A stretch of 64,000 bases of DNA, from assembly GCF_000234095.1 (NCBI RefSeq), contig NZ_JH376799.1:215217-279216 (forward strand). The letters are read 5' to 3'. Source of the stretch: Centipeda infelix ATCC 43532. GTDB taxonomy: Bacteria > Bacillota > Negativicutes > Selenomonadales > Selenomonadaceae. A model generated the notes under the pieces. That model ran no database searches, was not told the DNA's origin, and saw only the letters and a list, made by a program, of their open reading frames with translations. Shown here one piece after another: positions 7,910 through 10,133 of this stretch (the stretch's first letter is position 1; each line of letters starts with the position of its first letter). The translations under genes and the position numbers were made by a program.

Positions 7910-8560
7910 TCACAGATGCTCGCTCGCAAGCACAAAGGCATAGACGCGACGTGCTCCTGCACGTTTCAGCGTGCGTGCGCATTCGGTGAGGGTCGCCCCC
8001 GTTGTCATGATATCATCCACGAGGAGAACATCCCGCCCCTCGACATACGTTCCCTCCGTCACGGCGAATGCACCTCGGAGTTCCCGCCGCCGTTCCGTAC
8101 GCGTCTGTTCATAGAGCGGCGCTGTCTCGCGCGTACGGACGAGAAGTGCGTACAGCGCGATACCATGCGACGAGAGCCACGGAGCAAAGATCGCCTCTGC
8201 CTGATTGAACCCGCGGTCCTGCACACGCTGCGGCGCAAGCGGAACGGGTACGGCAACGAGCGGGTGCGGCAGTCCCGTCAGCACAGCCGCCCCCGCCGTG
8301 AGAATCGTATGAAGCGCAGGGAGCGCTTCCCTCTTTTTTTGGTATTTCAGCGCACGAAGGAGGTCACGTACGCCCTCCCGATACTGCGCAAACGCCCATA
8401 TACCATCGAGGTATTCCCGCGCATCCCCCATGCGTGCGAGAACGTGCAGACCGATCAGTCGCTGCGCACATGTCGGACAGAACGCGCCCCTGCACTCGAC
8501 GTAGGCGGAACAATTCGGGCAACGCGGCGGAAACAGGAAGTTTAGAAATGCTCTGAACAC
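7910..8560 (-). CDS. ComF family phosphoribosyltransferase-like protein
   Basis: Member of the ComF/GntX family, associated with DNA uptake or recombination in competent bacteria. The N-terminus has a zinc-finger-like PPRCPNC...CPTC. The C-terminal half is a type I PRTase-like fold with RGFNQAE and the phosphoribosyl-binding loop VLLVDDIMTTGAT. The longest frame starts near 8695, but its first 45 residues look non-coding. GTG at 8560 is eight bases after GGAG and gives the family-like start MFRAFLNFLFPPRC (GTG at 8563 is an alternative). No other competence gene adjoins. Confidence 0.85.
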   Translation of the reverse strand: MFRAFLNFLFPPRCPNCSAYVECRGAFCPTCAQRLIGLHVLARMGDAREYLDGIWAFAQYREGVRDLLRALKYQKKREALPALHTILTAGAAVLTGLPHPLVAVPVPLAPQRVQDRGFNQAEAIFAPWLSSHGIALYALLVRTRETAPLYEQTRTERRRELRGAFAVTEGTYVEGRDVLLVDDIMTTGATLTECARTLKRAGARRVYAFVLASEHL

Positions 8561-8590
8561 CACTATTTCTCCAATCATTCCAAAAAACGG

Positions 8591-8619
8591 TTGCGCACAT
8601 CCTGTATTTATGATATGAT
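8591..8619 (+). promoter_or_regulatory. orphan plus-strand promoter
   Basis: TTGCGC (8591-8596), 17 bases, TATGAT (8614-8619). It is divergent from comF and convergent with tsaC, and it drives nothing annotated apart from the region ending at the terminator at 9016-9054. Confidence 0.5.
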
Positions 8620-8672
8620 AAACGCAGGAAAGAGATATATCTCCGAGTAACGTGTAGATCCAAGAAAGGAGA

Positions 8673-8976
8673 ATGTCTATTGACACAGCTTTCAAAGCGC
8701 GGTGACCATTCCACCTGATGGGAATGCATCTTTGAAGAAGCGCAGAGACAGCAAACGTATATCGCTGATCTCATCCGGCATTGCATCGGCAAAGAATGAC
8801 CGCAGCGCCGCCACCCCGAACCGTCGGATGCGTGGCAATCTTCTCTGTACGATTCGTTTTTCGAAAACCTAGCGCGCAAATTGGATGATATTTGAGATCT
8901 CCAAACGGTTTCAGCTGAACGTACAATACAAGCTCGCACGGGCACAGAGGGTGTTCGTGTGACACCCAACAACTGA
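8673..8976 (+). pseudogene. possible decayed plus-strand gene or unrecognised RNA
   Basis: AAAGGAG (8665-8671) precedes possible starts ATG 8673 and TTG 8680. The TTG frame runs to 8976 with three internal stops (8716, 8797, 8893), all TGA. Between them it reads as plausible protein, for example IFEEAQRQQTYIADLIRHC and DAWQSSLYDSFFENLARKL. A second frame is open from GTG 8702 to TAG 8870-8872. No family is recognised. The region lies between a plus-strand promoter and a strong plus-strand terminator, so it is probably transcribed. It may be a frameshifted relic or a non-coding RNA. It is the only gene-free stretch over 300 bases in the window. Confidence 0.25.
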
Positions 8977-9015
8977 ATAAGGACGTGTTCAACTTTTATG
9001 GTAATTGTGAACTAG

Positions 9016-9054
9016 CCGGCAGCTTGCTCGAAACAGAGCGGCTGTCGGTTTTTT
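9016..9054 (+). terminator. plus-strand rho-independent terminator
   Basis: CCGGCAGC (9016-9023) pairs with GCTGTCGG (9041-9048), with an inner GCTC/GAGC helix and a following TTTTTT. On the minus strand no T tract follows, so it acts on plus-strand transcripts converging on tsaC. Confidence 0.8.
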
Positions 9055-9080
9055 GATTGCGTGGAACACGCAAGCTTGTC

Positions 9081-10133
9081 TCACACAAAACGGATATCAC
9101 CGCCGCTCGCCTTGCGCAGACGGTTCATAATCGCAGTCCCCAGCCCGACTGCCCCCGTTCCCTCAGCGAGGAGAGAAGTGGTGTCCGTATCATCAAAGTG
9201 GCGGAGCGCGTCGTAAAGGCAGGATGCAAATGCGCTGTGATTGCCGCGTGCGCCGCAATGATAAGTATACGCCGCAGGGATGAGATCTGCAAGTGCCATG
9301 ACGGTTTCATTGCTTGCGATGAGTGCCGGCCGCTCCCCTACCGCCGTGCGGCGCAAGAACTCCTCTCTCAACGCCGCTGCGACATCTGTCCCCGTCCCCA
9401 CATAGACGGTGAGCGGCACGCGCGGCGCATAGTGCATGTACTTCATGCCGGGCGCGCGTGGAGCTTCGTCCGCAGCCGTAAGAGCTGCATCCATGCGCAC
9501 CTCGATGTGCGGCAGTTCCGCTGCAATCATCTCGCGCGTGACAGCACCGGGGCGCAGAATCGTGACAGTCCCCTCCTCCGTGCAGTCGACAATCGTAGAC
9601 TCCACTCCCAAGCGGCAGCTGCCGCCGTCGAGAATGAGCGGAATGCGTCCCGCCATATCCTCATAGACCATCGCCGCCGAGGTAGGGCTCGGTCGTCCCG
9701 ATGTGTTCGCGGACGGCGCAGCAATTGGCACACCTGCCGCACGGATGAGACGACGCGCGACATCGTGGTCAGGACAGCGCACACCGACGGTCGGAAGTCC
9801 GCCCGTCACGATATCGGGGATGCGTGCGGCTTTCGGCAGAATGACAGTGAGAGGACCGGGCGCAAACACCGTAAGGAGGTGCGCGGCCGTCGGCGGAACA
9901 TCGGAGGCAACCTCATGCGCCATAGCGAGGTCGGCGATATGGAGGATGAGCGGATTGTCGGAGGGACGCCCCTTTGCCGCGTAGATACGCGCGCACGCCG
10001 CCGCATCCAGTCCGTTTGCGCCGAGCCCGTAGACCGTCTCCGTCGGAAATGCAACGAGCGCGCCGCTGCGGATCGTCTCTGCGGCACGCTCAAAATCTGT
10101 GGGCGATGTCGGACGAAATAACTCCGTATCCAT
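9081..10133 (-). CDS. L-threonylcarbamoyladenylate synthase
   Basis: Sua5/YwlC/TsaC-type enzyme that makes threonylcarbamoyl-AMP from threonine, bicarbonate and ATP for the tRNA t6A modification. At 350 residues it is the long Sua5 form, with an N-terminal YrdC domain (FPTETVYGLGANG and KGRPSDNPL) and a C-terminal Sua5 domain. ATG 10133 was chosen over an upstream frame because GGGAGG precedes it. It is the last gene of the rpmE-DUF1385-prfA-prmC unit, all of them translation-related apart from DUF1385. Confidence 0.93.
   Translation of the reverse strand: MDTELFRPTSPTDFERAAETIRSGALVAFPTETVYGLGANGLDAAACARIYAAKGRPSDNPLILHIADLAMAHEVASDVPPTAAHLLTVFAPGPLTVILPKAARIPDIVTGGLPTVGVRCPDHDVARRLIRAAGVPIAAPSANTSGRPSPTSAAMVYEDMAGRIPLILDGGSCRLGVESTIVDCTEEGTVTILRPGAVTREMIAAELPHIEVRMDAALTAADEAPRAPGMKYMHYAPRVPLTVYVGTGTDVAAALREEFLRRTAVGERPALIASNETVMALADLIPAAYTYHCGARGNHSAFASCLYDALRHFDDTDTTSLLAEGTGAVGLGTAIMNRLRKASGGDIRFV

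Follow-up and report, generated by a model that had tools for sequence, protein, structure and literature searches.

We identified, in the family Selenomonadaceae, a new structured RNA that carries a possible micro-ORF and whose function is inferred. The window analyzed is a 64,000-nt stretch of the genome of Centipeda infelix ATCC 43532, and all positions given below without a locus name refer to it. Comparison among genomes, made in the absence of expression data, showed that 8591–9054 holds a stand-alone folded RNA gene of about 430 nt, predicted from conserved sequence and fold. By the same kind of comparison, the window RNA is one genus's short version of a Selenomonadaceae RNA of about 500 to 680 nt that usually lies near comF. 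That this RNA is regulatory is an inference drawn without RNA data.

RESULTS

A plus-strand unit with a promoter and a terminator lies between comF and tsaC

The earlier note had read a promoter, TTGCGC-17-TATGAT, on the plus strand at 8591–8619, and this reading was confirmed in the sequence, with the −35 box TTGCGC at 8591–8596, a 17-nt spacer, and the −10 box TATGAT at 8614–8619. An extended −10 element, TGn at 8611–8613 (TG at 8611–8612, giving TGA-TATGAT), was found in addition. The promoter is conserved in 14/14 genus genomes, the −10 region being invariant or nearly so; the letters T21, G22, T24, A25, T26, A28, and T29 did not vary in the 14-genome alignment A2. On the basis of genus conservation, a kept fold, and homologues in other genera, the structured RNA of about 429 nt was assigned to 8626–9054 (plus strand), its 5′ end being inferred at about 7 nt past the −10 box. 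It closes with an intrinsic terminator at 9014–9054 (plus strand), whose stem begins at about 9014 and whose T run occupies 9049–9054. The description of this terminator as strong and T-tailed was borne out by a folding energy of −26.2 kcal/mol (z −3.94) and by a helix that pairs in 100% of the cells of the 14-genome alignment, that is, in all genus copies. A simple consensus scan reported neither element: the promoter was missed because TTGCGC matches three of the six consensus letters and the scan needs four, and the terminator was missed probably because its stem is interrupted.

The unit is transcribed away from its divergent neighbor comF, which encodes a ComF-family phosphoribosyltransferase (7910–8578, minus strand) and is the RNA's direct neighbor in 13/14 genus loci, and toward the end of the gene for tsaC/Sua5 L-threonylcarbamoyladenylate synthase (9081–10133, minus strand), with which it is convergent as previously stated. 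The latter neighbor was present in 12/14 genus loci (one partial at the locus edge); other genes stand at the tsaC side in L018, and L019 has neither comF nor tsaC. At 8579–8625, the RNA promoter abuts the comF start and would overlap any comF promoter located there; comF and the RNA may be co-regulated.

The absence of an intact gene between promoter and terminator was also upheld. Three plus-strand frames of at least 20 codons occur within the unit (56, 35, and 25 codons), and they were open and in frame in just 1, 2, and 3 of the 13 relatives, respectively.

The unit and its fold are conserved within the genus

The RNA stretch gave a single match in each of 14/14 Centipeda/oral Selenomonas genomes, a sample holding one genome per species. 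Identity was 70% to 86% in the genus genomes other than the window's own, inside which the next-best match covered only 25 bases. Column conservation, scored with a penalty for gaps in a column, was 0.93 to 1.0 in the core blocks, 0.42 to 0.6 in some variable parts within the unit, and 0.16 to 0.27 beyond it. Whereas the ComF proteins of the neighboring gene differ by up to 37%, the 85-base RNA core has a mean identity of 93%. Alignment A1 was left out, five of its rows being in the wrong orientation, and the counts reported here use A2. In L009 (genome G011), N letters, standing for withheld or unknown bases, fill about 2257–2838 between the RNA and tsaC.

Folded alone, the whole 430-nt stretch was only slightly better than its shuffles (z −1.80), and it is by conservation that the unit stands above chance. 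The folding z was below 0 in 14/14 genus copies, ranging from −1.68 to −4.06 (40 shuffles each). The consensus fold on A2 has 83 pairs, with 96.6% of cells paired; 18 of the pairs carry two-sided changes, against a mean of 6.2 in shuffled alignments, and 0 of 500 shuffles reached 18. When the partner was slid by 1 to 3 columns, at most 7 two-sided pairs remained. Five of the 14 genus helices (1, 2, 5, 9, and 12) are invariant, so pairing is neither supported nor refuted there.

The elements of the plus-strand fold, from 5′ to 3′, are as follows. The 5′ hairpin at 8640–8672 (helix 1) pairs UCUCC at 8640–8644 with GGAGA at 8668–8672; its loop is variable and its stem invariant, so that covariation leaves this pairing unproven, and a Shine-Dalgarno-like block sits in its 3′ strand. 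The central helix (helix 4; 8715–8789) pairs a 5′ strand at 8715–8727 with 8778–8789, and its family counterpart, CUGAC/GUCAG, has two-sided changes in 4/4 pairs. Within it lies a variable hairpin at 8745–8772 (helix 6, 4/8 pairs two-sided). The hairpin GCCAC..GUGGC occupies 8810–8836 (helices 7 and 8), followed at 8844–8928 by the near-invariant core, defined in the alignment by the mean column identity given above; the core includes GGUUUCAGCUGAACGU and is closed by a stem of UGUACG (8846–8851) and CGUACA (8920–8925). A second variable hairpin, at 8934–8962 (helix 13, 3/5 pairs two-sided, 82.9% of cells paired), leads from the core to the tail. Both this hairpin and that at 8745–8772 change freely in sequence, yet they are formed in 14/14 copies. 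The conserved tail ACAACUGAAUAAGGAC in A2 lies at 8969–8984, and the longer forms have a similar ACAA..GAAUA..AAGG block.

Longer homologues occur in other genera of Selenomonadaceae

R1, a covariance model of the core, was run over 189 Selenomonadaceae genomes and recovered the 14 genus copies together with two weak matches from outside the genus. One of these, L053 (genome G190, E 0.023), lies inside a LivH-like permease gene and was dropped. The other, L054 (G016, E 0.36), was recognized by eye as a full unit with a promoter, a 5′ GAGGAGA, CGGTTTCAGCTGAACGTTCAA, ACAACAGAATA, and a terminator; its core closing stem reads UGAACG/CGUUCA in place of the window's UGUACG/CGUACA, which is a compensatory change. 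The core motif is common to the window RNA, L054, and six g16 genomes; genus g16 was reached by a motif pattern run over 380 class genomes. Pattern matches in G280, G081, G085, G095, and G123 were discarded as chance, having no RNA-like surroundings by eye; a control with the reversed pattern also yielded scattered matches. With a g16 RNA as the query, blastn detected homologues at E ≤ 1e−4 in 36 of the 189 family genomes and 10 of 30 genera, and in 0 of the 14 genomes of the window's genus.

A covariance model, R3, was made from 25 sequences from outside the genus, with a modeled domain that excludes the core motif. Searched over the 14 genus loci together with three longer-form loci (57.7 kb), it gave 16 matches, namely the three longer forms and 13/14 genus loci (E values 0.00055 to 0.07 in the latter); nothing further appeared in this set at E ≤ 10, L019 being the sole genus locus missed. 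All 13 genus matches were on the correct strand and began at the GAAAGGA block (position 1604 of L001, equal to 8664 of the window). Over 380 class genomes, R3 detected 51 of the 175 non-genus family genomes (13 genera) at E ≤ 3.1e−5, and at this threshold 0 of the 191 class genomes outside the family, where the best E was 0.02. At whole-genome scale, the model found 0 of the 14 genus genomes at E ≤ 0.1. In total, the RNA was found in 65/189 family genomes and 14/30 genera; in the 16 of 30 Selenomonadaceae genera where it was not found, it may have diverged, the genomes may be incomplete, or the stricter filtering of that search may have hidden it.

Of the longer-form sequences, 29 had been extracted at that stage, and 25 of them entered two alignments, A7 and A8. 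L128 was excluded as a near-duplicate of L127, and L141, L144, and L145 were excluded as cut short or carrying an insertion; L118 and L119 (93% to 94% identical to L116) and the second copy of genome G191 had been left unextracted. In the R3 fold of the longer forms, 17/26 pairs are two-sided (shuffled mean 8.0; at most 7 after sliding), and in the whole-length alignment 35/69 pairs are. It should be noted that the genus fold and the longer-form fold were each derived from the same alignment that was used for counting pairs. A home-made phylogeny-aware covariation test, crude and underpowered with 25 sequences, identified no significant pair in the longer forms, a result that nonetheless weighs against the RNA gene. 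The earlier note had proposed a comparison with relatives and would have been refuted by a lack of plus-strand RNA and of conserved promoter, terminator, or structure; the comparison found all three of the latter conserved in 14/14 genus genomes, with compensatory changes, and that outcome did not occur.

Two copies were unusual. In L145 (genome G061), the 5′ domain runs 222 nt up to the GAAAGGA block, compared with 92 to 120 nt elsewhere, and the RNA measures about 670 nt. Genome G191 of genus g16 has two similar copies, L113 and L114, on separate contigs, possibly by duplication or by assembly contamination (listed as 4%).

In the fetched flanks of 30 longer-form loci (L116–L145), comF and a radical-SAM gene (TIGR04100/TIGR04038) were each present in 25 and yqeB in 27, and yqeB stood between comF and the RNA wherever both genes were seen. 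The gene order is thus comF-yqeB-RNA outside the genus versus comF-RNA in the window's genus, the simplest reading being that the latter lost yqeB and retained comF-RNA. In some g16 copies (L127), a same-direction frame lies beyond the RNA terminator. The −35 region frequently reads TTGCAAT..TCTGA across many genera (longer-form loci, for example, L116 upstream of 1550); this exceeds what a simple −35 box requires, and a regulator site is possible.

A putative short ORF ends at the central helix

A Shine-Dalgarno-like AAAGGAG at 8665–8671 (plus strand) is invariant in 14/14 genus copies and is aligned by R3 with the family block GAAAGGA. Downstream of it lies a short ORF, MTQLSKRGDHST, at 8680–8718 (plus strand), with a TTG start at 8680 and a TGA stop at 8716–8718; it has 12 codons in 14/14 genus copies. 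In 43/43 copies (29 longer and 14 genus), a GAAAGGA-like block is followed by TTG and a frame that stops after 12, 13, or 14 codons. The TTG ORF was also present in 11 of 20 further loci, among which L170 and L171 were read by eye (AAAGG, TTG, 14 codons, TAG). Overall, 54 of 63 copies have a TTG ORF of 12 to 14 codons; this count covers 63 of the 65 RNA-bearing genomes, the copies of two genomes being unscanned. The nine copies without it are L168, L172–L178, and L187, of which L187 has a frame of 9 codons; an ATG takes the place of the TTG in L172 and L173, and such a frame is missing from L168 and L174–L178.

The stop of the ORF coincides with the fold. In the genus copies, the UGA stop lies within the 5′ strand of the central helix, and in most longer forms the stop (GACUAG or CCUAG) is in or next to that strand. 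One clade has the helix CUAGC/GCUAG and an in-frame stop one codon earlier. Statistical support for coding was limited. By column permutation, amino acid similarity gave p values of 0.23 (genus), 0.09 (g16 12-codon group), and 0.09 (13-codon copies), and 0.44 and 0.08 in two subgroups of these, the five groups overlapping in part; the chance of a stop-free frame was 0.19 in the genus, 0.22 in the g16 group, and 0.018 in the 13-codon copies. The coding evidence, which comes from sequence comparison without ribosome data, is modest, suggestive of a short ORF and no proof of one.

In an RNAalifold prediction, columns 132–136 of A7, where the Shine-Dalgarno-like block reads GGAUG, pair with UAUCU of the tail at columns 610–614, about 480 columns apart. 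Such a pairing would mask the ribosome site; covariation support for this modeled contact is small.

The RNA matches no Rfam 15 family at cut-off

The earlier note had left a covariance-model search as a check and had recognized by eye no signature of tmRNA, RNase P RNA, or 6S RNA. In Rfam 15, at gathering and relaxed thresholds, no family reached the cut-off on the window RNA, L054, seven g16 copies, L136, or L145, the best subthreshold row across copies having an E of 0.14. Four rows, all far below cut-off, were dismissed as chance matches, namely, BTnc049 on the window RNA (E 0.42), SpF22 on L113 (E 0.14, opposite strand), Qrr on L110 (E 0.35), and ncS011 on L136 (E 0.19). The reading by eye also stood: tmRNA (no RF00023 or ARAGORN match), 6S RNA (no RF00013 match), and RNase P RNA (no RF00010 match) were rejected as identities, and the genome's own copies are located elsewhere, at G000:C3:394324-394675, G000:C4:98653-98828, and G000:C1:267563-267915, respectively. 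Like tmRNA, the Selenomonadaceae RNA is a large folded RNA with an internal short ORF; unlike tmRNA, it has a Shine-Dalgarno-like block and a start codon.

OLE, ROOL, and GOLLD are likewise large RNAs with an ornate fold and a poorly understood function, according to PMC12286853. They were rejected as identities, with no Rfam model match on the window RNA, L054, the g16 copies, or two others, and they differ from the Selenomonadaceae RNA, which is chromosomal and stands beside housekeeping genes. No match was found in viral contigs (exact patterns), plasmids (one g16 query), or phages (window query), a comparison that rests on few queries and is not exhaustive. The dual-function RNAs RNAIII, SR1, SgrS, and VcdRP, as described in PMC8672173, also combine a regulatory size with a short ORF. 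In contrast to these, the ORF here has just 12 to 14 codons, begins with TTG, and stops within or next to the central helix, and the RNA has no known pairing target and no demonstrated translation. No description of the Selenomonadaceae RNA was found in the part of the literature searched (including PMC8632094, PMC6429828, PMC11109978, and PMC8040213).

DISCUSSION

The explanation that we consider probable joins three elements, namely a folded RNA gene with its own ends, action in trans, and a short ORF that couples translation to the fold. Transcription would start from the RNA's own promoter and end at its own terminator. The RNA would then act in trans, for which there is no direct evidence; this is inferred because the RNA heads no operon here, the next gene in the window's genus being convergent, and because the downstream neighbor varies between genera and is preceded by the RNA's terminator. 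More weakly inferred is that ribosomes translate the short ORF. A ribosome terminating at its stop would have to open the central helix or stall at it, again without direct evidence, and translation and RNA fold might be coupled because the ribosome would end at that helix, as in a dual-function or translation-responsive RNA.

The reading of the unit as either a regulatory RNA or a decayed gene survived in its first half only: an RNA gene is supported in 14/14 genus genomes and 13 other genera, its regulatory role being inferred, and the second half was rejected. A decayed protein gene, or a chance pair of promoter and terminator, is hardly credible, for although the frame at 8680 does have in-frame stops, the first stop is at an identical place in 14/14 genus copies, and frames of at least 20 codons were not kept, whereas the fold was kept and the core shows 93% identity. 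A structured RNA that is purely noncoding (a scaffold, a ribozyme, or a regulator), in which GAAAGGA and the TTG frame would be by-products of RNA conservation, is a real possibility, albeit one that we rather doubt. The blocks GAAAGGA, TATTGA, and CTGACTAG are conserved beyond what a peptide would need, the ...TD-stop ending of the peptide follows from the helix strand CUGACUAG, the coding tests are individually nonsignificant, and 9/63 copies lack the frame. However, 43 copies are open in frame even though the distance from start to stop shifts by whole codons (12, 13, 14), and the CUAGC/GCUAG clade retains an in-frame stop although it falls one codon earlier. An RNA sequestering CsrA/RsmA appears very unlikely. 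GAAAGGAUGU resembles the CsrA consensus, and all 25 long forms in A7 share GGAUG without variation; sponges of the CsrB/RsmZ type have many GGA motifs, however, and GGA is not enriched here, with 6 in 429 nt versus 7.5 expected from mononucleotide shuffles, and 9, 12, 13, and 9 in four longer copies versus 11.2, 10.3, 12.5, and 8.9 expected. Moreover, the site reads GGAGAAUGU in the window's genus.

The raiA-motif RNA (RF03072), called ModT in C. difficile, is the nearest analogue in type and location, with no detectable homology and with functional likeness not established. It too is a structured, stand-alone Bacillota RNA that has a promoter and a terminator of its own, is deeply conserved, and often neighbors comFC (PMC11706538, PMC11477304, PMC11751092); ModT is very stable and trans-acting, measures 215 to 260 nt, and has comFC as its commonest neighbor, in 74% of cases (PMC11706538). 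This neighbor criterion, a frequent feature and not a strict definition, is met by 13/14 genus and 25/30 longer-form loci, with yqeB intervening in the longer forms. That the Selenomonadaceae RNA is a highly diverged and enlarged orthologue of raiA-motif/ModT at the comFC locus nonetheless seems improbable: no RF03072 row appeared at E ≤ 10 on the window RNA, L054, L136, or L145, or at E ≤ 1 on L109–L115, and a length of 430 to 680 nt stands against 210 to 260 nt. Since it fails the covariance-model test, we did not place it in raiA-motif/ModT. It also differs in mostly having a short ORF and in its restriction, within the searches made, to a single family. The raiA-motif/ModT core of about 210 nt has two pseudoknots, and our consensus folds were modeled without pseudoknots. 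A bolder version, that a new RNA class replaced or grew from the comFC-linked raiA-motif/ModT and is translation-responsive through its micro-ORF, remains speculative and on balance unlikely. If it were true, a ribosome stopping at the base of the central helix would make the fold, and whatever the RNA controls, report the state of translation.

Few RNAs of such size are conserved across many genera, and the ones that are understood (tmRNA, 6S RNA, and RNase P RNA) do central jobs. Of the 30 genera searched, at least 14 carry the present RNA, and little was found on the RNA biology of their family. It offers two testable handles, the Shine-Dalgarno-like block with its ORF and the defined central helix. 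Finally, its site beside comF, a frequent place of raiA-motif/ModT in Bacillota, raises the question of whether one lineage replaced or rebuilt that RNA.
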